Shown here piece after piece: positions 9,543 to 47,338 of a stretch of DNA of 64,000 nucleotides. Both the position numbers and the translations under genes were made by a program. Numbering within the stretch: position 1 is the first letter of the stretch; every line of letters starts with the position of its first letter. Origin of the DNA: Bryobacterales bacterium (GTDB taxonomy: Bacteria > Acidobacteriota > Terriglobia > Bryobacterales > Bryobacteraceae); NCBI GenBank assembly GCA_020852755.1, contig JADZAF010000020.1, positions 1-64,000 of the forward strand, read 5' to 3'. The notes below the pieces were generated by a model. That model saw only the letters and a list, made by a program, of their open reading frames with translations, had not been told where the DNA came from and did no database searches.

Positions 9543-11384
9543 ATGCGTCGCCCGAGCCGGCACAATGCGGTCTACATCGGCCTGCTGGCGGGTTCCTTTC
9601 TCGCAGCCCTGGTAGCGGGATGGACCTCACTGGCCGTGGAGATCGACAATGCCGCCTACGACGTGATGTACCGCCTGTACCGGCCGCCGCACTGGCAGAC
9701 CCAGTCCATCCTGCTGGCCATTGACGAAGGGACACTCAAGGAATCGGGCGGCGTCAGTGCTCTGCGCCGCACTCTGGCCGAGGGTCTGGAGCGCGTGGCT
9801 TCCGCCAGGCCCCGGGCGGTGGCCATCGACATGATCCTTTCCGACCCCGGTGATCCGGCGGACAATGCGCGGCTCGAGAAAGCGCTGGCGGCGGTGCCCA
9901 ACGTGGTCCTGTCATGCGACCTGCTGCCGGGCGGGGAGGCCTGGGACGATCCGCTGCCGCGGTTCCGGCAGCGGGCCGCGGCGGTCGGCCACGTGCACGC
10001 CAACCCGGACGTTGTGAGCCGGGCGGTGCCTCTGGAGAAAGCCACTGCGCGCGACCGGCGCTGGGCGCTCGCGCTCGAAGCCTACCGCGCCGCGCGCAAG
10101 GCTGAAGTCCTGGAATCGCCCCGCGATCTGCTGGTGGGCGACCGCCTGATCCCCGCGGCCCGCTCGGACGCGCGCGCCATGCTGGTCCGCTACGTGCCTC
10201 CCGGCATGGCGCCCATCCCGCACGTTTCCGTGAAGGAGTTGAAGCAGCAGCCGGCGCTGGCGGCCCGCTTCACGGGCAAAACGGTCTTTGCGGGAGTGAC
10301 CGCCCAGACGGCCGCCCGTGACCGCATGATGACGCCCTACCAGCGATCGGCGGTGGGCCTGGAGATCCACGCTTCCGCTTTCGAGACCATCGCCCAGGGG
10401 ATGTTTCTCCGGCCGGCGCCGGAGTGGCTGGCGCTGAGCGTCTGCCTGCTGCTGGCCGCCGGGGCCGGCCTCACGTTCTTCTTCCTGGCCGGGTGGCCTG
10501 CCTACCTGGTGGCCGGCTGCATTCTGGGAGCGGCTCATCTGGCGCCATACTGGGCGTTCACCCGGAACGTCGTGCTGCCGTACTCGCCGACGGTCTCCAC
10601 CGCATGGCTCTGCCTGGTGGTGGCGGGCGGCTACCAATACCTGGCCGTGCGGCGGCGGCTGGGACGCTCGGAAGCGGAGCGCGTGCGCTATCAACAGGCC
10701 ATGCATTTCGTCACCCACGAGATGCGCACGCCTCTGACCGCCATTCAGGGCTCCAGCGAGCTGATGGGCCGCTACAACCTGCCGGAAGACAAGCGCAAGC
10801 AGATCGCCGCGTTGATCAACTCCGAATCCAAGCGGCTGGCGCGGATGATCGAGATCTTCCTGAGTGTGGAGCGGTTGGGCGCCGGACAGATGGAACTCAA
10901 GCAGGAGCGCTTCACCGCTCCGGAACTGGTAGCATCCTGTGTGGAGCGCATGCGGACGCTGGCGGATCGCAAGCAGATCCGGGTGGTCGTGGAGGCGCTG
11001 CCGGAGGCCTCCCTCACCGGGGACCGCGAGTTGATGGAATACGCCGTGTACAATCTCCTCACCAACGCGGTGAAGTACTCCCCGGCCCAGACCACGGTGA
11101 CAGTCTCGGGCAAGCGGGAGAGCGACCGCGTGTGCCTGTCGGTAAAAGATGAAGGCATCGGAATGGACCAGGCGGAGGTAAAGAAGATCTTTCAGAAGTT
11201 TTACCGGACCCGGCGGGCCGAGCAGTCGGGAGAGGCCGGAACCGGCATCGGGCTTTCGATCGTCGAACAGATCGTCTCCGAGCACGGAGGGACCGTTGAA
11301 GTGGCCAGCAGCCCGGGCCGCGGATCCTGCTTCACCGTGGCGCTGCCGGCCCAGGCTCCGGTCGCGGCCGCAGGACAGAATTGA
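9543..11384 (+). CDS. CHASE2-domain sensor histidine kinase
   Basis: 613 aa. An N-terminal membrane helix (residues ~10-30) is followed by an extracytoplasmic CHASE2 domain (~35-285, with AIDEGTLKESGG and AVAIDMILSDPGD), then about three membrane helices (~295-375). The kinase core has the H box with His392 in THEMRTPLTAI, the N box NLLTNAVKYS, and glycine boxes DEGIGM and GTGIGLSIV, with FQKFYR between them. All catalytic landmarks are present. The stop overlaps the next start (TGATG), so it is coupled to the sigma-54 response regulator, which is almost certainly its partner. The ligand of the CHASE2 domain is unknown. ATG 9543 lies directly after the peptidase stop, without a clear ribosome binding site. 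Confidence 0.93.
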   Translation: MRRPSRHNAVYIGLLAGSFLAALVAGWTSLAVEIDNAAYDVMYRLYRPPHWQTQSILLAIDEGTLKESGGVSALRRTLAEGLERVASARPRAVAIDMILSDPGDPADNARLEKALAAVPNVVLSCDLLPGGEAWDDPLPRFRQRAAAVGHVHANPDVVSRAVPLEKATARDRRWALALEAYRAARKAEVLESPRDLLVGDRLIPAARSDARAMLVRYVPPGMAPIPHVSVKELKQQPALAARFTGKTVFAGVTAQTAARDRMMTPYQRSAVGLEIHASAFETIAQGMFLRPAPEWLALSVCLLLAAGAGLTFFFLAGWPAYLVAGCILGAAHLAPYWAFTRNVVLPYSPTVSTAWLCLVVAGGYQYLAVRRRLGRSEAERVRYQQAMHFVTHEMRTPLTAIQGSSELMGRYNLPEDKRKQIAALINSESKRLARMIEIFLSVERLGAGQMELKQERFTAPELVASCVERMRTLADRKQIRVVVEALPEASLTGDRELMEYAVYNLLTNAVKYSPAQTTVTVSGKRESDRVCLSVKDEGIGMDQAEVKKIFQKFYRTRRAEQSGEAGTGIGLSIVEQIVSEHGGTVEVASSPGRGSCFTVALPAQAPVAAAGQN

Positions 11385-15664: not shown

Positions 15665-16279
15665 TCAGCTGTTCTTCACTACCACGTTCTGCAGCACGTC
15701 GGCCACGTCTTCGCAGCGGTCCGTGGTCGCCTCCAGCAATTCGTACACCTCTTTGTACTTGATGATCGCAATGGGATCGCGCTCGTTCTGGAACAGGCCT
15801 TCCACGGCCAGGCGGCCGATGCGGTCGGCCTCGTCTTCCAGCCGGTTGATCTCGATGCAGTGCTCCAGCACCTTCTCGTTGCGGTGCAGCGCCTGAAAAG
15901 CCTGCATCAGGGTCCGGCAACTGGCATCGACGATCTCGGACAGCTGAATGATGGTGGGCGTGATGGGTTCCAGCCGGTAGGCGGCGATGTGGTGCACGGC
16001 GTCTTCAATGCCGTCCAGCACGTCATCCAGGCTGGAGGAAAGGGCATGGATGTCCTCGGGATCGATAGGGGTGATGAAGGTCTGGTTCAGACGGGTGAAC
16101 ACATCGTGAATGACTTCATCCCCTTTTCGCTCCAGCACCGCGATCTCTTCAGCGACCGTGGCCAGCTGCGAGTTGCCGGCCTTGACGCCCCTGGCGAGCA
16201 ACTGGCCGGCCTGTTCGATGATTTCAAGCTGTTTCAGAAACAATGCGAAGAACTTTTCTTCACGCGGCAGGAGCCTCAT
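15665..16279 (-). CDS. DUF47 / PhoU-like Pit accessory protein
   Basis: 204 aa, mostly helical, with the DUF47 pattern: FFALFLKQLEIIEQAGQLL at the start, an ELERKGDE-like segment (VLERKGDEVIHDVFTRLNQ), DDVLDGIEDAVHHIAAY, and a C-terminal EATTDRCEDVADVLQN. The family resembles PhoU and is found next to Pit transporters, where it is thought to modulate phosphate uptake. It is the first gene of the pair, with Pit 5 bases downstream. ATG 16279 is the only sensible start. Cytoplasmic; no membrane segment. Confidence 0.92.
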   Translation of the reverse strand: MRLLPREEKFFALFLKQLEIIEQAGQLLARGVKAGNSQLATVAEEIAVLERKGDEVIHDVFTRLNQTFITPIDPEDIHALSSSLDDVLDGIEDAVHHIAAYRLEPITPTIIQLSEIVDASCRTLMQAFQALHRNEKVLEHCIEINRLEDEADRIGRLAVEGLFQNERDPIAIIKYKEVYELLEATTDRCEDVADVLQNVVVKNS

Positions 16280-16372
16280 AGAACCTCAGAGCACCTCGTA
16301 GCGATCATGGGTGAGAACAAAAAAGAGAACTTCATCTTCTCACCCGGCCACACCGAGGTCAATCGGCCCATG

Positions 16373-17158
16373 TTACAGTTCGGTGACAATCGGGAAGGGC
16401 CCGGCCGGCGCCGCACGCCCGGGTTCCAGATCCAGGAAGCGCGGATCCAGCAGCCGGCCGGCATCCACGTTGCCCATGGCCGCAAGCATCTTCTCTTTCA
16501 GATGCGGATACTCTTGTTCCAACTGGGCGAACAGGCCGCGCAGGGCCCGGCGCACGGTGCCGGTCTTCTGCGAGCAGCCGCAAGGCACCACGGGCGCTCC
16601 CAGGGACGCCGTGTACGCGCTGGTGATTTCCTCGGTCACGAAGACCAGCGGACGGATCAGCCGGAACTGCCGGTCGCGCGACCAGGTGACCGGCGGCAGC
16701 GCGCTCAGCCGGCCGGTAAACAGGGTGTTTCGCAACAGCGCCTCGCAGAAATCGTCCGCGGTGTGGCCGAAGGCGATCACGTTCGCCCCCAGGCCGCCCG
16801 CCACTTCGTAAACTGCCCGCCGCCGATAGCGGCTGCACAGGTCGCAGCCATGACCCGGCTGCTCCTTCAGGAGACGGAACGAAGGAGCGTCGTGAAAGTA
16901 CGTCCAGGCCACCCCCTTGGCCGCCAGGTATTCCCGCAGCGGCTGGATGGGCCGCAGGAACTTGCCCTGCTCGATAGTGAAAGCGCAGACGGAGAATTGG
17001 ACTGGCGCGCGTTTCTCCAACAGCAGCAGGGCATCCAGAAGAGTCAGAGAGTCCTTTCCCCCGGAGAGCGCCACCGCCACCCGGTCGCCCTCGCGAATCA
17101 TCTTGAAACGGTGAATCGCTTCGCCGACGCCGCGAAGCACTCTATGTTGCGGGTCCAC
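16373..17158 (-). CDS. ttcA: tRNA 2-thiocytidine synthetase TtcA-like protein
   Basis: 261 aa from GTG 17158. Upstream frame is open but overlaps the tonB-like gene, and a perfect TATAAT sits 7 bases before this GTG, which decides the start. The PP-loop SGGKDS (residues 32-37), the pair Cys105-x-x-Cys108 in CDLCSRYRRR, and a third cysteine in VVPCGCSQ match TtcA, which uses an iron-sulfur cluster to make 2-thiocytidine at tRNA position 32. GHTADDFCEALLRN is the family's GHxxDD motif. Relatives that thiolate other tRNAs (TtuA) share the PP-loop but carry extra zinc fingers, which are absent here. It is separated from tonB by its own promoter. Confidence 0.88.
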   Translation of the reverse strand: MDPQHRVLRGVGEAIHRFKMIREGDRVAVALSGGKDSLTLLDALLLLEKRAPVQFSVCAFTIEQGKFLRPIQPLREYLAAKGVAWTYFHDAPSFRLLKEQPGHGCDLCSRYRRRAVYEVAGGLGANVIAFGHTADDFCEALLRNTLFTGRLSALPPVTWSRDRQFRLIRPLVFVTEEITSAYTASLGAPVVPCGCSQKTGTVRRALRGLFAQLEQEYPHLKEKMLAAMGNVDAGRLLDPRFLDLEPGRAAPAGPFPIVTEL

Positions 17159-17165
17159 TGTCTCA

Positions 17166-17171
17166 ATTATA
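17166..17171 (-). promoter_or_regulatory. Perfect TATAAT -10 for a leaderless ttcA
   Basis: On the minus strand TATAAT is followed after 7 bases by GTG 17158, with no Shine-Dalgarno. No clear -35 is seen at the expected distance. Confidence 0.6.
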
Positions 17172-17231
17172 CCGGCAGCGGCTCTTTCTCCCGCCGCGGC
17201 CCGTCGCCCGGCGGAAGCCCTCGAGCAGAGG

Positions 17232-18290
17232 TCAGTTCGAGGGCATGTTGTAGACGAAATTGAACTGCAGCCGCACCTGTTCGCCGGCAAACTCGCCGGG
17301 CAGCGGCGGGAAGGGGTTGGAAGCGCTGATCCCCGCCACGGCGGCGCGGTCCAGAGCATCGGTGCCCGAGGGCGCAACGATCACCAGCTTGGGCACCCGC
17401 CCGCTGCGGTTGATGGCAAACTGAATCGACACTTTGCCGCGGCGCCCGAGTTTGGCGCTCTCCGGCATCACGGCATACCAGTTGCGGCGCACGGCGCCCA
17501 GGATCTGAATCAGGTACGGCCGGAAATCGATGCCCTGGGGGTCGCTCAACAGCTCCAGGTTCGAGGCCTGGCGGCCGGGCGACGGCGGCATGTTCAAGGC
17601 CTCGCCGATGCCGCCCACCCCGCCCGTGCCCAGATCGCCCACGATCAGGCCCGCCGACCCGCCCCCGCGGGCCAGGCTGCGCACGGCCTCGCTGACCGCG
17701 CTGCCCGTGCCCGTCCGCTGGCCCAGTCCGCCTCTCGACGGCGCAGGGGGCGGAGCGGGGTTCTCCAGCGCCAGTTTCGGCTTCTCCTGGGTTTGGATCT
17801 GCGGGGGCGGCACCGGGGCGGGAGGCAGAACCTGGGCCATTTCGGTCAACTTGCCGGCTCCACCGAGGCGCGGCGCCTCCGGGAGAGCGAGAGCCGGGCC
17901 GGGCTCGGGTTGCCGGCTGGGCAGCGCCAGCACGCGCGCCCGGGGCCGGGTGGTGGAGGGCGGCGAAGGAGGAACCTGAATCCCGCGCCGGGCCAGCAGG
18001 GCTTCGGCGTTGATCTCCTTGGAAATCTTCCCCTTATTCGGCTGCGGCTGCGTCAGTTCGAAGGGCGGTGCGATCAGCGGCGTGACCGTCCGGGCAATCT
18101 CGGCGGCCTGCCGGACCACGCTCTTGGGCATCATGGCCAGCCCAAGGATGGCTGCAGCATGGATCATCAGGGACGCCAGGCCGGCCTTGCGCTCCCGCCT
18201 GCGGTCCCCTCCACCCTCCCAGAGACGGAAAACGGGTACTTCCTCCTGTTGTGTTTCCAACGGCTTCGGAGGGTGAGCTACGGTTTCCAT
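17232..18290 (-). CDS. TonB-family energy transducer
   Basis: 352 aa. A short cytoplasmic N-terminus, one membrane helix (about 38-54, LASLMIHAAAILGLAMM), a long proline-rich periplasmic stretch (~90-200), a glycine-rich linker, and a C-terminal TonB domain (~250-350) with FDFRPYL-like entry, VRRNWYAVMP, GKVSIQFAINRSGRV and a final LQFNFVYNM strand. It should transmit the proton-motive force to outer-membrane receptors. No ExbB/ExbD genes are in the window. Its ATG lies 13 bases inside the end of the upstream Gfo/Idh gene, so it is translationally coupled to the lpx operon, which is an unusual place for tonB. No receptor gene is adjacent. Confidence 0.85.
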   Translation of the reverse strand: METVAHPPKPLETQQEEVPVFRLWEGGGDRRRERKAGLASLMIHAAAILGLAMMPKSVVRQAAEIARTVTPLIAPPFELTQPQPNKGKISKEINAEALLARRGIQVPPSPPSTTRPRARVLALPSRQPEPGPALALPEAPRLGGAGKLTEMAQVLPPAPVPPPQIQTQEKPKLALENPAPPPAPSRGGLGQRTGTGSAVSEAVRSLARGGGSAGLIVGDLGTGGVGGIGEALNMPPSPGRQASNLELLSDPQGIDFRPYLIQILGAVRRNWYAVMPESAKLGRRGKVSIQFAINRSGRVPKLVIVAPSGTDALDRAAVAGISASNPFPPLPGEFAGEQVRLQFNFVYNMPSN

Positions 18291-40113: not shown

Positions 40114-40341
40114 GAATCAGCCTCGACAGGAGTCATCAGACTTTTCAATGTAACATCGGGCGGCGCGTAATTGGACATAACGCGCCGGGTCTCCCCTGAT
40201 CCGCGCATCGGTATGGGGAAGGCCGATCCGCACTGCACGGAGGCCGGCAGAACCGGGTCGTGCGGTCGGCGTACGGACGGACTTGGGGGTTCCGGCCGCG
40301 GAGCGGGATCCGGAAAGGCGTCAAGCCAGGCATCTTCGTGT

Positions 40342-40347
40342 TAAAAT
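40342..40347 (+). promoter_or_regulatory. -10-like TAAAAT before the MerR-TPR gene
   Basis: TAAAAT with 5 bases to GTG 40353; no Shine-Dalgarno, so a leaderless start is likely and decides the start codon. Confidence 0.45.
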
Positions 40348-40352
40348 TCAGC

Positions 40353-41276
40353 GTGTCCGGCAAGGTGACCAAGGAGATTCACACGGTTGAGGATGTCTGC
40401 CGGATGCTGCGGATCTCCCGCCAGCAGCTGCGCAGCTGGCAGCGCCTCGGCTACTTGCCCCAAAGCGATCAGTTCACCTTCTCCGACCTGATCGCGATTC
40501 GCACCCTTGAGAACCTGAAGAAGAACCGGGTGTCGGCGCGGAACATCGCCCGGGTTATCGAGAGCCTGCGGCGGCGCCTGGCGGGTGTGGAGCGGCCGCT
40601 TTCCGAGTTGCGGATCGTTTGCGACGGCAAGACCATTTCAGTCCAGGTTGCCGGCCGGAAGATGGAGGCGATCAGCGGCCAGTTCCTTTTCGATTTTGAG
40701 ACGGCGGGGCTGGATAACGTGAAGTCGCTGGCCTCAAAGCCGGCCAGAGAGGGCCGCGCCGGCCAAACCACCCTGCGGGCGCAGGCTGAGCACTGGTTCC
40801 AGAGGGGCTTGTCGCTGGAGGAGACCGGCGCACCGATTGCAGAAGCCGTCGAAGCCTACCGGAAAGCCCTCGAACTGAACCCGTCAGCCGCCGGAGCCCT
40901 GGTGAACCTGGGCACGATTTACTACCACCAGCACAAGTTCAAAGAGGCCGAGGAACACTACCTGAGGGCGGTCAAGGCCGATCCCAGATACGCCCTGGCG
41001 CACTTCAATCTCGCCAACCTCTGGGACGAACAGGGCGACCCGGTTCGAGCCCGGCAGCACTATGAGAACGCCATCCGCCTGGACCCGGGGTACGCCGACG
41101 CGCACTACAACCTGGCGCTGCTGCACGAGAAGACCGGAGATTTTCTGAAGGCGACCTACCACTGGCGCACGTATTTGAAACTGGACTCCTCCAGTTCCTG
41201 GGCCGACATCGCCAGGCGGCAGTTGGACAAACTGCGCCAGATCACCATCGTGCGCGGCGCAGGCGAGAGCAGTTGA
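40353..41276 (+). CDS. MerR-type DNA-binding protein fused to TPR repeats
   Basis: 307 aa from GTG 40353. The N-terminal ~75 residues are a MerR-like winged helix: HTVEDVCRMLRISRQQLRSWQRLG, then LPQSDQFTFSDLIAIRTLENLKKNRVSARNI. A linker domain (~75-150) precedes at least three tetratricopeptide repeats (~160-280: AEAVEAYRKALELNPSAAGA, KEAEEHYLRAVKADPRYALA, ARQHYENAIRLDPGYADA). MerR proteins usually carry a ligand-binding or dimer coil at this place; a TPR array suggests control by a protein partner. It is followed on the same strand by the DUF2760/Hsp70 genes and may regulate them, but this is only inferred from position. An inverted repeat lies downstream. Confidence 0.82.
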   Translation: MSGKVTKEIHTVEDVCRMLRISRQQLRSWQRLGYLPQSDQFTFSDLIAIRTLENLKKNRVSARNIARVIESLRRRLAGVERPLSELRIVCDGKTISVQVAGRKMEAISGQFLFDFETAGLDNVKSLASKPAREGRAGQTTLRAQAEHWFQRGLSLEETGAPIAEAVEAYRKALELNPSAAGALVNLGTIYYHQHKFKEAEEHYLRAVKADPRYALAHFNLANLWDEQGDPVRARQHYENAIRLDPGYADAHYNLALLHEKTGDFLKATYHWRTYLKLDSSSSWADIARRQLDKLRQITIVRGAGESS

Positions 41277-41451: not shown

Positions 41452-41973
41452 TTGAAACGCATCCTGCTGGCTTTCCGCGGCTTTTTCGGAATCCTGTTTT
41501 CCGGAAAGCTGTCCGACGAGACCGCCGCGGCGCTGGGGCTCTCCCGCAAGGCAGACGCCCCGCCTCCCGCGCCGCCTCCCCCGCCTGCCGCCTCGGCATC
41601 CGACGGCGCTCTGCAACTGCTGGCCATCCTGCAGCGCGATTCCCGCCTGCTGGATTTCCTCATGGAAGACATTTCGGGCTACGCGGACGACCAGGTCGGA
41701 GCGGCTGTCCGGGAACTCCACGGCCAGTGCCGCGAGGCGCTGCGGCAGTACCTGAAGCTGGCGCCGGTGATCGACGGCGTGGAAGGCACATTCGCCCGAA
41801 TCCCCGCGTCGGATCCCTCCGCCGTCAAGCTGATCGGCAACGTTCCCGCCCAGCCGCCGGCGGGCGGCATCCTGCGCCACAAGGGCTGGAGAGCCGCGTC
41901 GGTGCAGCTGCCGCCGTTGAATCTTCGTCAGGATCTGACCGTGATCGCTCCGGCGGAAATCGAAATCGAGTGA
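41452..41973 (+). CDS. DUF2760 protein, first gene of the twin-Hsp70 locus
   Basis: 173 aa from TTG 41452, with GAGAGAGG about 9 bases upstream; no in-frame ATG gives a full N-terminus. An amphipathic or weakly hydrophobic N-terminal stretch (MKRILLAFRGFFGILF) may touch the membrane, then a proline-rich linker (~38-50) and a DUF2760-type domain (~52-173): LQLLAILQRDSRLLDFLMED, YADDQVGAAVRELH, GVEGTFARIPASDPSAVKLIG and a final HKGWRAASVQLP. DUF2760 is of unknown function; in my knowledge it tends to occur directly before Hsp70-like genes, as here (7-base gap to the first Hsp70). It could be a co-chaperone or client adaptor. Confidence 0.75.
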   Translation: MKRILLAFRGFFGILFSGKLSDETAAALGLSRKADAPPPAPPPPPAASASDGALQLLAILQRDSRLLDFLMEDISGYADDQVGAAVRELHGQCREALRQYLKLAPVIDGVEGTFARIPASDPSAVKLIGNVPAQPPAGGILRHKGWRAASVQLPPLNLRQDLTVIAPAEIEIE

Positions 41974-41980
41974 GGCGGCG

Positions 41981-43813
41981 GTGGCACAATTTGTAATCGG
42001 AATCGATCTGGGAACCACGAACTGCGCCCTGGCCTACATTGAAGCGGGCGAAGAGGCCCTGGCGGACCCCTTCCATCTTCCGGAAGTGAAGGTGATGCCC
42101 GTGCCGCAGCTCGTCAACCCGGGCGAGGTACGGGACGAGGGCCTGCTGCCGTCGTTCCTGTACCTGGCCGGGCCGCGCGATTTCCCGGAGGGCTCCCTGG
42201 CCCTGCCGTGGGACCCGGAAGGCAACCCGCTGGTGGGGGCGCTTGCGCAGAAACGGGGCGTCGAGAACGCCGGGCGGCTGGTGGCATCGGCCAAAAGCTG
42301 GCTGTCCTATCCCGGAGTGGACCGCAGCGCGCCCATCCTTCCCTGGCGGGCCCCGGATGGCGTGGCGAAGATTTCGCCTCTGGAAGCTTCCCGCCGCTAC
42401 CTGGATCACCTCCGCCGTGCCTGGGACTGGAAGCACCCGGAGGCGCCTTTCGCGGCGCAGCAGGTACTGGTGACCGTCCCGGCTTCCTTTGACGCCGTAG
42501 CGCGCGAGTTGACCCTCGGCGCGGCCGAGGCGGCCGGCTTTCAGAACATTACCCTGCTGGAGGAGCCGCAGGCAGCCTTCTACGCGTGGATCGAACGGCA
42601 CCCGGACTGGCGCGAGCGGGTCAAGGTGGGGGACCTGATTCTGGTGGTGGACGTCGGCGGCGGCACCACCGACTTCACCCTGATCGCGGTCACAGAACGG
42701 GAGGGCGAACTGGCCCTGGAGCGGGTTGCGGTCGGCGAGCACATCCTGTTGGGCGGCGACAACATGGACCTGGCCCTGGCCCGCTCGATCGAGCAGGAAC
42801 TGGCGGCCAAGGGCACGCGCATCGACCCGGTACAGTTCCACACGCTGTGGCACAACTGCCGGGTGGCTAAGGAGCACCTCCTGGAGCCGGGGACCAGGAA
42901 GCGCGAACAGCCGGTCACCATCCTGGGACGGGGCACCGGCCTGGTGGGAGGCACGATCCGGGCCGGCTTGCGGCGGGAGGAAGTGGACCGCATTCTGATC
43001 GATGGGTTCTTCCCGAAGGTTTCCAGCCACGACCTGCCCCAGCGCGCGCGCAGGGCGGGGCTGCTGGAGATCTCCTTGCCGTATGCCAGCGACGCCGGGA
43101 TCACCCGCCACATGGCCCGGTTCCTGCGCCAGCAGGCGGCCGCGAGCGAGCACGGCATGGTGCGCCGCGCCGCCAGCGGCCTGGCCTGCCCGACCCACGT
43201 GCTGTTCAACGGCGGCGTCTTCCGGGCCCCGGCGCTTCGCCAGCGAATCGTGGAAGTGCTGAACACCTGGCTGGAAGAGGAAGGGATGGGCGCCGTGGCC
43301 CCTTTGGCCGGGGAAAACCTGATGGAAGCGGTGGCGCGCGGCTCCGCCTACTACGGAATGGCCCGCTTGGGCAGGGGCGTACGCATCCGTGGCGGAGTGC
43401 CGCGCAGCTATTACGTGGGCATCGAAACCGCCATGCCGGCCGTGCCGGGCGTCCCCAACCCGCTGAAGGCCCTGACAGTGGCCCCCTTCGGCATGGAGGA
43501 GGGAACCCAGGCGCGGATCCCCGGCCAGGAGTTCGGCCTGGTCGTGGGCGAACCGGCCGAGTTCCGGTTCTACTCCTCGAGCGTCCGTAAAGACGATCAA
43601 CCAGGGACCATCATCGAGGACCTCGGTGAGGAACTCCAGGAGTTGTCTCCGATCGAGGTGGCCCTGCCGGCCGGCGCTGACTCCAGCGAGGTGGTGCCGG
43701 TTTCTTTTGAGACGGTCGTGACCGAGACGGGAATGCTGCAACTCTGGTGCGTGGCGCGGGACGGCCGCCGGTGGAAGCTCGAGTTCAACGTCCGCGAGCG
43801 CGTGGAAGCATGA
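41981..43813 (+). CDS. Divergent Hsp70-family ATPase (first of two)
   Basis: 610 aa from GTG 41981. Hsp70 ATPase landmarks: phosphate-1 loop GIDLGTTNC (7-15), VTVPASFDAVARELT, EPQAAFYAWIE, phosphate-2 loop DVGGGTTDF at ~224-232, GGDNMDLALA, and NGGVFRAPALRQRI. The C-terminal part (~430-610) looks like a beta-type substrate domain (VPRSYYVGIE, VAPFGMEEGTQ, FRFYSSS) but the helical lid and the EEVD-type tail of DnaK are missing. The stop overlaps the next gene as ATGA, so both Hsp70 proteins are made together. No DnaJ or GrpE gene is nearby. It is clearly not housekeeping DnaK; relatives form an uncharacterised group. Confidence 0.9.
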   Translation: MAQFVIGIDLGTTNCALAYIEAGEEALADPFHLPEVKVMPVPQLVNPGEVRDEGLLPSFLYLAGPRDFPEGSLALPWDPEGNPLVGALAQKRGVENAGRLVASAKSWLSYPGVDRSAPILPWRAPDGVAKISPLEASRRYLDHLRRAWDWKHPEAPFAAQQVLVTVPASFDAVARELTLGAAEAAGFQNITLLEEPQAAFYAWIERHPDWRERVKVGDLILVVDVGGGTTDFTLIAVTEREGELALERVAVGEHILLGGDNMDLALARSIEQELAAKGTRIDPVQFHTLWHNCRVAKEHLLEPGTRKREQPVTILGRGTGLVGGTIRAGLRREEVDRILIDGFFPKVSSHDLPQRARRAGLLEISLPYASDAGITRHMARFLRQQAAASEHGMVRRAASGLACPTHVLFNGGVFRAPALRQRIVEVLNTWLEEEGMGAVAPLAGENLMEAVARGSAYYGMARLGRGVRIRGGVPRSYYVGIETAMPAVPGVPNPLKALTVAPFGMEEGTQARIPGQEFGLVVGEPAEFRFYSSSVRKDDQPGTIIEDLGEELQELSPIEVALPAGADSSEVVPVSFETVVTETGMLQLWCVARDGRRWKLEFNVRERVEA

Positions 43814-46461
43814 AGATCGGCATCGACCTCGGAACCACCAATTCCGCCCTGGCCTACATCGATCCGGACGAGGCCGGCGATCTGGATTTTCCGCCCATTC
43901 ACATCTTCGAAATACCCCAGATGGTGGCGCCCGGACGAGTGGAACCGCGCCGCGTCCTGCCCTCTTTCCTGTTTCTCGAGGACGGGCAGCCGGTCGGCGA
44001 GTATGCGCGGGAGCAGGGCGCGCTGGTGCCCACCCGGCTCGTGCATTCGGCCAAGTCCTGGCTGTCGAACGCCGAGGTGGACCGCACGGCGCGGATTCTT
44101 CCCTGGGATTCCCAGCAGCGGGTTCTGTCGCCGGTTGAGGTGTCGGCGCGGTTTCTGAGAAAGTTCCGCGAGGAGTGGGACCGGGCACAGCCGGACCGCC
44201 CGCTGTCCGGGCTTCCGGTGGTGCTTACGGTTCCGGCCTCCTTCGACGAGGAGGCGCGCGAGCTGACCGTGCAGGCGGCTCAGGATGCCGGTCTGACCCT
44301 GCAAACCCTTCTGGAAGAGCCGGCTGCGGCCTTCTACGCCTGGATCGCCAACAACCTGGCCCGCTCCCGCAAGGCCCTGCACGACGGGCAACTGGTGCTG
44401 GTGTGCGATGTCGGGGGCGGCACCAGCGATTTCAGTCTGATTCGTGTATCGCGGCAGGACGACCGGGTGGATTTCACCCGCACCGCCGTAGGCCGGCACC
44501 TCCTGCTGGGCGGGGACAACCTGGACCTCACCCTGGCCTGGCTGGCCGAAACCAAGCTCGGCAAGCCGCTCTCGCTGCGGCAGCGGAACGGCCTTCGCAG
44601 GCAGTGCGCGGCAGCCAAGGAGCGGCTGCTGTGCGATCCGAATCTGCCCGCCGTCGAGATCACCGTGCTGGGAACCGGCACTTCGCTCATCGGCGGCGCT
44701 CTGAAGACCTCCGTCAGGCGGGAAGAGGCGCTGGAACTCGCGCTGGAGGGTTTCCTGCCGTTCACGGAACGCGGCGAGCGGCCCAAGGAGGAAAAGCGCA
44801 GCCTGTTCCGCGAACTGGGCTTGCCGTACGTTTCCGACCCGGCCATCACCCGTCATCTGGGCGCCTTCCTGGAGGACTCCGGACAGCCCGGCCCGGACGC
44901 CATCCTGTTCAACGGCGGGTTCTTCATCCCCGAAGTGTGCCGGCAGCGGGTAGCGGACGTGGTGGAGCGCTGGTACGGCAAAAGGCCGGAGGTGTTCGAG
45001 AACCGGGACCTCGACCTGGCGGTGGCGGCCGGAGCCGCCTACTATGCTTACGCTCGCACGACCGGCAGCGGCGTGCTGGTGCGCGGCGGGCTTCCGCGGG
45101 CCTACTATCTGGGCATCGGGGAGCCCGAGCCCGACAAGCTGACCACTGTCTGCCTGGTGCCCCGCGGAACCGAGGAAGGGGTGACGCTGGGACTGGAACG
45201 GGAGGGCCTGCAACTGGTGGCCAACCGCCCGGTCGCTTTCCGCCTCTACAGCTCGCTGACCCGCGTCGAGGACCGGTTGGGCGAGGTGGTCGAGTTCAGC
45301 CCGGGCGACGACAGCCTCCACACCCACGCTCCTTTGCATGCTGTCATCCGGTTCGGCAAGCGGGCCGAAGAACGGCTGATTCCGGTGACCATCGGCGCGC
45401 GGTTGACCGAGGTCGGGACGCTGGAGACCTGGTGCCAGTCCAAAGTCAGTGAGAACCGCTGGCGGCTGCAGTTCCAGCTTCGCAAAAGCGCGGATACGGC
45501 TGCGGTGCGCGCCCGGCCCGCGGCGGTGATTTCCGACGCCGCCCAGAAGCAGGCGCTGGATTTGGCTGCGGCGGTGTTCTCTCCCACCGGGAAGTCGCCG
45601 ATCGAGCCCGAGGAACTGCCCTCGCGCCTGGAGCAGGTCCTGGGGCTCGGGAAGAATTCGTGGCCTTTGAATACCATCCGGCAGATGGCCGACGTCTTCC
45701 TGGCCGCGGCGGCCGGGCGCAGAAAAAGCCCGGCTTACGAGATCCGCTGGCTCAACCTGGGCGGTTTCTGCCTGCGGCCCGGCTTCGGGTTTCCCGGCGA
45801 TGACTTTCGGATCGAGCAGGCCCGCAGGATCTATGCAGCCGGGCTGCAGTTCGGCAACCAGGTGCAGTGCGAAATCGAGTGGTGGATTTTCTGGGGGCGG
45901 GTCGCGGGCGGGCTGAACCGCAACCAGCAGATCGACATCTTCCAGCGCCTCTCGCCGGCGCTGCTGCCGCGTGCGCCCCGCAAGCAGCGGATCAACACCA
46001 GCCTGCTGCGGGAAATGTGGCGAACGGCGTCCAGCCTGGAGCTGTTGCCGCTCCAGACCAAGATGGAGCTGGGCGACACGCTGATCCGGGCGGTGAAGGC
46101 CGGATCCGCGAAGCAGACCGAAGTGTGGTGCCTCTCGCGGCTGGGCGCGCGCCAGTTGTTCTACGGCCCTGTCAACCAGGTGGTCCCACCGGCGGCGGCC
46201 ACCCGCTGGGTGGAGGCACTGCTGGGCGTGCCGGCGGCGGGCGAAGCCCTGGCATCGATAGCGCGGCTGACCGGGGACCCCACCCGCGACCTGGCGCCGC
46301 CGGTCCGCGAAGCGGTGCGGCGGAAACTCGAAGCCTTGCCCGACGCGGAACGGGTGCTGGCGGCGTTGGAGGGCGAGGAGGAACGCGACGCCCGGGCCCT
46401 GGAAAGGATCTTCGGCGAGGAACTGCCTTCGGGGCTGGTGATTGGGGAGCCGGGTGGATAA
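43810..46461 (+). CDS. Divergent Hsp70-family ATPase with large C-terminal extension (second of two)
   Basis: 883 aa from ATG 43810 (ATGA overlap). Hsp70 domain: GIDLGTTNS (4-12), VLTVPASFDEEARELTVQAA, EEPAAAFYAWI, DVGGGTSDF at ~200-208, GGDNLDLTLAWL and LFNGGFFIPEVCRQR, then a beta-type domain up to about 560. The last ~300 residues (from about 583, LDLAAAVFSPTGKSPIEPEEL onwards) are an extra mostly helical domain with SWPLNTIRQMADV, YEIRWLNLGGFCLRPG and a WWIFWGRVAGGLNRNQQ segment; I believe this is the DUF3731 region. The pair of Hsp70 proteins is similar in plan, suggesting duplication followed by fusion and possible heterodimer formation. Function unknown. Confidence 0.9.
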   Translation: MKIGIDLGTTNSALAYIDPDEAGDLDFPPIHIFEIPQMVAPGRVEPRRVLPSFLFLEDGQPVGEYAREQGALVPTRLVHSAKSWLSNAEVDRTARILPWDSQQRVLSPVEVSARFLRKFREEWDRAQPDRPLSGLPVVLTVPASFDEEARELTVQAAQDAGLTLQTLLEEPAAAFYAWIANNLARSRKALHDGQLVLVCDVGGGTSDFSLIRVSRQDDRVDFTRTAVGRHLLLGGDNLDLTLAWLAETKLGKPLSLRQRNGLRRQCAAAKERLLCDPNLPAVEITVLGTGTSLIGGALKTSVRREEALELALEGFLPFTERGERPKEEKRSLFRELGLPYVSDPAITRHLGAFLEDSGQPGPDAILFNGGFFIPEVCRQRVADVVERWYGKRPEVFENRDLDLAVAAGAAYYAYARTTGSGVLVRGGLPRAYYLGIGEPEPDKLTTVCLVPRGTEEGVTLGLEREGLQLVANRPVAFRLYSSLTRVEDRLGEVVEFSPGDDSLHTHAPLHAVIRFGKRAEERLIPVTIGARLTEVGTLETWCQSKVSENRWRLQFQLRKSADTAAVRARPAAVISDAAQKQALDLAAAVFSPTGKSPIEPEELPSRLEQVLGLGKNSWPLNTIRQMADVFLAAAAGRRKSPAYEIRWLNLGGFCLRPGFGFPGDDFRIEQARRIYAAGLQFGNQVQCEIEWWIFWGRVAGGLNRNQQIDIFQRLSPALLPRAPRKQRINTSLLREMWRTASSLELLPLQTKMELGDTLIRAVKAGSAKQTEVWCLSRLGARQLFYGPVNQVVPPAAATRWVEALLGVPAAGEALASIARLTGDPTRDLAPPVREAVRRKLEALPDAERVLAALEGEEERDARALERIFGEELPSGLVIGEPGG

Positions 46462-46477
46462 AACTCGCGGAAGGCGG

Positions 46478-47338
46478 ATGCGGCTGCGGTCGTCGGAGTG
46501 GGTGATCGCGGCCTACTTCAGCTACGCCGCCCTGCTGGCCTGGCTGCTCCCGGTGCCGCGCCGGGTGGCCGCTGTCACGCTGGTTCTGAACCTCACCATC
46601 CTGGCCGGCCTGCTGCTTCTGGCCTACGCCGATTCATTTCGGCAGGGGCGCTTTCTGGGGACGGTGCGGGACTGGTTCCCTCTGCCGCTCATGCTGCTCG
46701 GCTACCGGGAAATGGGGTGGTTCGCGCCCCAAGTCCACCGCTTCCACTGGGAGATGATCTGGGTCCAGTGGGACCGCGTCCTGCTGCGCGAGTGGGGGCT
46801 GAAGGCGGCCATCGAGTCCCTCGGCCCGCTGCTGCCTTCGGTGCTCGAGATCTCCTACTCCCTGGTCTACACCACGGCCGTGTTCTCCCTGGCCATGCTT
46901 TACGCCTACGGCCGCCGGAAGCGCGCCGCCAGCTTCAATTTCACCTTTCTGCTGGGCATCTACCTGGCCTACGCGCAGTTCCCGTTCTGGCCCAGCGAAC
47001 CACCCCGGACCGTCTTTCCGGGCGAGGATTTCCCCGCCTACTTCACCGTTTTTCGGAAGTTCAACTGGTGGCTGCTGGGAGGTTATGGAATCCACACCAG
47101 CGTGTTTCCCAGCGCGCACACGGCAGGCGCTTTTTCGGCCGCCTTCGCCATGCGGCGCCTCCTGCCGGAGAAACCCTGGGTGGGCCGGTTCCTGCTGACC
47201 CTGGCGGTCCTGATTGCCACCGCGACGGTCTACGGGCGCTACCATTACGCAGCCGATGCAGTGACCGGCCTCGCAGTGGCGGCCGCGGCCGAGACCGTCA
47301 GGCGGGTTTTGGCGCGCTCTTCGACTCGGCCGGTTTAG
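46478..47338 (+). CDS. PAP2-type membrane phosphatase/phosphotransferase
   Basis: 286 aa from ATG 46478, with AAGGCGG just upstream; in-frame GTG 46454 and TTG 46442 overlap or touch the Hsp70 stop and are alternatives. Six to seven membrane helices with PAP2-like motifs: FWPSEPPRTVF, VFPSAHTAGAF (PSxH motif with the catalytic His) and YGRYHYAADAVTG (His and Asp of the last motif). The plan resembles the Aur1/Ipt1-like inositolphosphotransferase branch. It should act on lipid phosphates. It lies 16 bases after the second Hsp70 gene, so it may be part of the same transcript. Its 3' end overlaps the convergent FmdB-like gene by 41 bases. Confidence 0.85.
   Translation: MRLRSSEWVIAAYFSYAALLAWLLPVPRRVAAVTLVLNLTILAGLLLLAYADSFRQGRFLGTVRDWFPLPLMLLGYREMGWFAPQVHRFHWEMIWVQWDRVLLREWGLKAAIESLGPLLPSVLEISYSLVYTTAVFSLAMLYAYGRRKRAASFNFTFLLGIYLAYAQFPFWPSEPPRTVFPGEDFPAYFTVFRKFNWWLLGGYGIHTSVFPSAHTAGAFSAAFAMRRLLPEKPWVGRFLLTLAVLIATATVYGRYHYAADAVTGLAVAAAAETVRRVLARSSTRPV

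Follow-up and report, generated by a model that had tools for sequence, protein, structure and literature searches.

The Hsp70 cycle is usually regarded as dependent on J-proteins, on a conserved linker and, in most cases, on a lid. In DnaK, J-domain docking and allostery work through residue R167 and the linker. The E. coli protein YegD has no lid, and the eukaryotic Hsp110/Sse1 and Ssz1 are divergent Hsp70s that belong to unlike pairs, one member of which has an extended or altered C-terminus. Tim44 and the membrane J-proteins are membrane-attached adaptors that recruit Hsp70.

In Vibrio cholerae, at least two genes of the unit VC1373-1375 have been called DnaK-related (PMC5816637; PMC9201469). 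The unit came out of a screen for biofilm-repressed genes (PMC9201469), and the VC1375 promoter is a target of HapR, which activates it in vivo as well as in vitro (PMC10328515). Papers on DUF2760 or DUF3731 by those names were absent from the literature searched, a body of work that excludes most subscription journals. VC1375 is presumably a DUF2760 protein. The original prediction regarded the locus reported here, a DUF2760 gene followed by two divergent Hsp70 genes, as the best candidate for an undescribed system. This holds insofar as the papers searched give it no function, but the genes themselves are already known, since their families are present in Pfam and NCBI annotates them as Hsp70 family protein and DUF2760 protein.

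Results

The locus lies within the window, by which we mean the whole 64,000-nucleotide stretch of DNA that was analysed. Its features are as follows:

40260..41276, plus strand: MerR-type HTH and TPR protein (PF13411 and TPR family matches), upstream of DUF2760
41452..41973, plus strand: DUF2760 protein, TTG start, stop codon at 41971-41973, 173 aa
41981..43813, plus strand: HspA, GTG start, 610-aa divergent lidless Hsp70 with an ATPase domain and an SBD-beta-like C-terminus
43810..46461, plus strand: HspB, ATG start, 883-aa divergent Hsp70 with a C-terminal helical extension
43810..43813, plus strand: ATGA start/stop overlap of HspA and HspB, read from the sequence

DUF2760, HspA and HspB follow one another head to tail, with a gap of 7 nt between the first two; upon re-reading of the sequence, the three plus-strand genes with their 7-base and ATGA junctions were recovered at the coordinates first given for them. 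The TTG start of DUF2760 is supported by its homologues, which open with M-x-R-I-x-L-A-F-R-x-F-F. In Pfam, the DUF2760 protein matches PF10816 (E 2.2e-40, 137.8 bits, cut-off 25), HspA and HspB match PF00012 weakly at 55 and 66 bits, both above the cut-off, and residues 640-877 of HspB match PF12531 (E 7.6e-74), far above the Pfam cut-off, so that the C-terminal domain provisionally assigned to DUF3731 does belong to that family. Promoter and terminator scans of the locus gave no signal beyond chance level.

Two neighboring genes were considered as further members of the system and rejected. The MerR-TPR gene is immediately upstream in just 17 of the 65 loci with sufficient upstream DNA, and it is a lineage-specific neighbor whose product possibly regulates the operon. 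A gene for a PAP2-family membrane phosphatase (46442-47338), whose first 20 nt overlap HspB, is absent from the related loci (the best 80 of 592 matches, all close relatives) against which the neighbors in the window were searched. Elsewhere in the window (9543-11384), a CHASE2-domain histidine kinase is encoded.

HspA matches the DnaK-family profile with 99.7% probability over the ATPase domain, where HspB matches likewise; both also match the MreB family weakly. In a residue alignment of 93 proteins (50 HspB and 43 HspA), the equivalents of DnaK D8, T11, K70, E171, D194, T199 and D201 are invariant throughout, in agreement with the expectation that both Hsp70s keep the ATPase loops. The equivalent of N170 is E in all 93, that of R167 is replaced in 88 by T, V, I, M or A, and the DnaK-type LLLD linker is present in none. 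With both the R167 equivalent and the linker changed, ordinary use of a J-protein looks unlikely, and the retention of the arginine at the R167-equivalent position in 5 of the 50 HspB counts against J-independence.

Orthology of the two Hsp70s to DnaK or HscA had been set as a refuting test. In a tree with E. coli DnaK, HscA and HscC as well as the source genome's own two DnaKs as comparators, all HspA and HspB fall within one clade of their own, on a long stem with 100/100 support. Left out of the final tree were YegD, owing to its long branch, and the Hsp70-like sequences of contigs C89 and C257; the short match on contig C89 of the source genome reads as MreB-like. With the NCBIfam models of DnaK and HscA, whose cut-offs exceed 600, HspA and HspB reach 39-93 bits (73 and 93 bits, respectively, for the HscA model). 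The separate clade and these curated model scores together reject ordinary DnaK/HscA duplicates. The PRK11678 chaperone model, which we take to be that of YegD, gives 37 bits for HspA and 27 bits for HspB with a cut-off of 331. HspA constitutes a single clade, and HspB may be paraphyletic (p-AU 0.03, with long branches).

The homology between the two Hsp70s extends over the full length of HspA (profile E 6e-169). As HspA aligns end to end with HspB, the latter is equivalent to HspA plus a C-terminal helical domain, and the predicted extra domain of ~300 aa corresponds to ~300 aa of helices that replace the lid. The DnaK helical lid is indeed absent: HspA stops directly after its SBD-beta-like region, and in HspB DUF3731 is found there. 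The AlphaFold2 model of HspB (pLDDT 81.7) comprises an ATPase domain (1-421), an SBD-beta-like domain (430-556) and a helical extension (576-867) including DUF3731 (640-877). Its ATPase domain aligns with that of DnaK with a Z of 37.4 over 349 residues at 2.9 A. When the model is compared with a lid-deleted DnaK, 441-446 residues align versus ~346 for the ATPase domain alone; we read the ~100 further residues of the model as probable SBD-beta, and the sequence profile match ends near the first SBD-beta strands. A conserved FGE-LP-GL motif is located in the low-confidence tail of HspB (window 46415-46445).

The DUF2760 protein has the N-terminal sequence KRILLAFRGFFGILFSGK, and its AlphaFold2 model (pLDDT 89.2) shows an N-terminal helix at about aa 2-17 that is hydrophobic and amphipathic, a Pro-rich linker (about aa 34-48) and a helical/beta core (49-154) with helices at 49-71 and 79-100 and short strands. 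The core yielded no convincing match among solved structures (best Foldseek E 0.8, best Z 4.4 over 57 residues), which does not in itself establish a new fold. Among 78 DUF2760 proteins, Pfam matches were confined to PF10816, with neither the J-domain PF00226 nor GrpE PF01025 detected. The C-terminal tail, APAEIEIE, contains a motif that is near-invariant in homologues, APAE(I/L/V)E (window 41935-41970). By analogy to EEVD, this tail and the HspB FGE-LP-GL motif are possible docking motifs. Across the family, the amphipathic N-terminal helix is followed in most members by a Pro-rich stretch. Two Bradyrhizobium DUF2760 proteins have two strong N-terminal hydrophobic spans, with a best Kyte-Doolittle 19-residue mean of 2.9, whereas in the Acidobacteriota proteins the N-terminal helix does not stand out as a membrane span (its best hydropathy averages 1.25, and 6 of 73 reach 1.6). 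The proposal of a membrane location is thus upheld by the two clear spans in Bradyrhizobium and is less certain for the amphipathic helix found elsewhere. That the N-terminus varies yet stays hydrophobic throughout, while the core is fixed, speaks for attachment to the membrane.

The triplet is kept by almost every Bryobacteraceae genome and is also found on plasmids of distant relatives. Its co-occurrence had been chosen beforehand as a refuting test of the original prediction. When the phylum is sampled evenly with 247 genomes, DUF3731 is present in 6 and DUF2760, above the cut-off, in the identical 6 (Fisher p ~3e-12), and among 200 genomes of the family DUF2760 is present in 177 and DUF3731 in 179, with both in 170, DUF2760 only in 7, DUF3731 only in 9 and neither in 14 (p 6e-11), these p-values overstating independence because the genomes are related and some are fragmented. 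In five family genomes lacking both DUFs, HspA is absent too. Coupling, whose conservation was likewise to be checked, recurs elsewhere: HspA and HspB are spaced at -4 in 19 of the 45 loci compared, and the distance from DUF2760 to the next gene, HspA included, is below 20 nt in most. No DUF2760-Hsp70 gene fusion, which would be evidence of contact, was found in related loci.

A survey of 72,556 plasmid records identified DUF2760 in 11, from Burkholderia, Caballeronia, Comamonadaceae, Bradyrhizobium and Thiodictyon. The best HspA/HspB matches among plasmids come from the same 11 records and lie at most a few kb from DUF2760; in the annotated copies of Comamonadaceae and both Bradyrhizobium, the order is DUF2760, Hsp70, Hsp70. 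Two plasmid copies are on conjugative plasmids. The Thiodictyon plasmid encodes a DUF2760-HspA pair with no adjoining HspB. This pair adjoins several genes annotated as anti-phage along with a TIR gene, and on the Bradyrhizobium CB82 plasmid groES and groL follow the triplet (15851-17895 of the locus). A record titled as a Bordetella parapertussis MAG contains a Bryobacterales-like locus and is probably mislabelled.

The three genes are not always together. HspA lies between DUF2760 and HspB in 36 of the 58 loci where those two share a strand, and is missing from that position in the other 22. The adjacency of DUF2760 and HspB persists after the loss of HspA from between them, with seven changes on the HspB tree, at least six of which are forced by well-supported branches. 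A search of 10 genomes without an intervening HspA located it elsewhere in 4 (61-74% identity); in the other 6, all of them members of the family and at least 90% complete, DUF2760-HspB is present and HspA was undetected anywhere in the genome. Since HspA can be lost while DUF2760-HspB is kept, the stable unit is DUF2760 together with one Hsp70 of this lineage. In one genus, a divergent DUF2760 is encoded without HspA or HspB (1483-2043 in one of three loci); a reading of the ORFs places it next to a gene for a sigma54-type activator and one that resembles a radical SAM maturase.

Neither a J-domain nor a GrpE gene was found on the contig of the window. In six carrier genomes, no J-domain was found on the triplet-bearing contigs, and GrpE was on the triplet contig in one, ~11 kb away. 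The claim that the system has no J-protein or exchange factor is therefore true of the locus but not of the genome, which elsewhere has seven J-domain matches and one GrpE. The source genome also encodes two DnaK-type proteins (contigs C36 and C294), each with an adjoining J-domain match, strong at C36 and below the cut-off at C294. Conceivably, J-proteins elsewhere in carrier genomes could help HspA and HspB in trans.

Discussion

The gene order, coupling, co-occurrence, ATPase residues, missing linker and lid and membrane-type N-termini described above are drawn from sequences and structural models. What we infer is that DUF2760 contacts the Hsp70s, that they work at the membrane and independently of J-proteins, and that they act as chaperones on clients. 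The reading that we tentatively favor, and consider a serious possibility, is that of an Hsp70 module tethered to the membrane, in which DUF2760 rather than a J-protein is the dedicated partner. Such a module would act on the inner surface of the cytoplasmic membrane, to which DUF2760 would attach by its N-terminal amphipathic helix or, in some bacteria, by two membrane spans. The flexible proline-rich linker may then present the DUF2760 core and its fixed C-terminal tail to the ATPase/SBD-beta body common to HspA and HspB. DUF2760 would fill the role played for ordinary Hsp70s by a membrane J-protein or by a Tim44-type adaptor. HspA and HspB would be active ATPases whose lidless binding domain holds polypeptides that are associated with the membrane or inserting into it, and in HspB the helical DUF3731 domain might substitute for the lid. 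Several observations count against this module: the lack of a clear membrane span in Acidobacteriota, the arginine kept by five HspB, the J-proteins of carrier genomes that could act in trans, the genus having a lone divergent DUF2760 and neither Hsp70, and the SBD-beta assignment, which leans on a fold model.

A bolder proposal, to which we would give a real but minor share of the probability, is that DUF2760 is the first member of a third class of Hsp70 partners, distinct from J-proteins and exchange factors alike: an adaptor of undescribed fold, anchored in the membrane and driving lidless Hsp70s with a rebuilt J-binding surface and linker, with DUF3731 as a new type of lid.

The original prediction had paired HspA with HspB as a heterodimer. 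In its obligate form, HspB would be a putative exchange factor or regulator of HspA, in the manner of Hsp110/Grp170 or Ssz1, with DUF2760 as an accessory. The tight translational coupling of the two genes, their full-length homology as one long and one short partner, the large extension of HspB at the position of the lid and the presence of both Hsp70s in the majority arrangement would all be in keeping with such a pair. However, the six HspA-less genomes and the Thiodictyon plasmid without an adjacent HspB weaken the obligate form, since what commonly recurs is DUF2760 together with a single Hsp70 of this type; moreover, all tested ATPase residues are found in both partners and no degenerate regulatory partner is evident. 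We therefore deem an obligate heterodimer unlikely.

DUF2760 could also be a dedicated client, a small membrane protein which the Hsp70s fold, insert or keep soluble. Its N-terminus (KRILLAFRGFFGILFSGK), which has Arg/Lys on either side of hydrophobic residues, is similar to the peptides that Hsp70s classically bind, it is strictly co-inherited with the Hsp70s, it stays when either Hsp70 is missing, and it stands alone in one genus. Nevertheless, ~4.5 kb of ATPase genes for a single small client would be unusual, and the strongly conserved core and C-terminal tail suggest a partner surface, not a passive substrate, which leaves this role quite improbable. We are just as skeptical of a nucleotide-driven membrane switch or scaffold, an Hsp70/actin-type ATPase without chaperone activity that might serve, for example, envelope or cell-surface organisation: the weak MreB matches, the lack of a DnaK-type allosteric linker and the membrane-type DUF2760 N-terminus would suit it, but profile and fold favor Hsp70 over MreB and the model includes an SBD-beta-like domain. 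A mobile defence or stress island is hinted at by the plasmid copies (two of them conjugative), the anti-phage neighbors in Thiodictyon and the patchy distribution in the phylum, but it is very improbable given the near-universal presence in Bryobacteraceae, a PADLOC result limited to a weak partial match of the ATPase domain to PDC-M61B (23 bits) and the fact that no DUF2760 relative was confirmed in viral contigs. A phage origin was rejected on the same viral-contig result and because the phage matches listed were partial and of ATPase-domain length only.

If the membrane-tethered module is correct, a widespread Hsp70 lineage that has the ATPase, lacks the linker and lid and is accompanied by a membrane-type protein of unassigned fold where a J-protein would be expected could serve to test what is indispensable in the Hsp70 cycle. 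DUF2760 and DUF3731 would gain a function, and the retention of a three-gene unit by almost the whole family would be explained.

When set beside known systems, the locus exhibits both parallels and distinctions. Like DnaK of the DnaK/DnaJ/GrpE system, HspA and HspB have the ATPase fold and the same catalytic residues, and the HspB model suggests an SBD-beta-like domain; unlike DnaK, they have neither lid nor LLLD, their R167 and N170 equivalents are changed, they form a separate clade, DUF3731 is added in HspB, and the triplet locus has no J or GrpE gene. As with HscA/HscB and HscC/DjlC of E. coli, a specialised Hsp70 is encoded next to its own partner, although their partner is a J-protein and here it is DUF2760, which lacks a J-domain match. 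YegD is similarly a short divergent bacterial Hsp70, but it is ~450 aa in length and has no DUF2760 or DUF3731 neighbor. HspA and HspB resemble Hsp110/Sse1 and Ssz1 in being a pair of unlike Hsp70s, except that either bacterial member can be missing and both keep the ATPase residues. Finally, DUF2760 has no Pfam match to Tim44 or the membrane J-proteins and its core has no convincing solved fold, whereas its proposed role as a membrane adaptor would be analogous to theirs.
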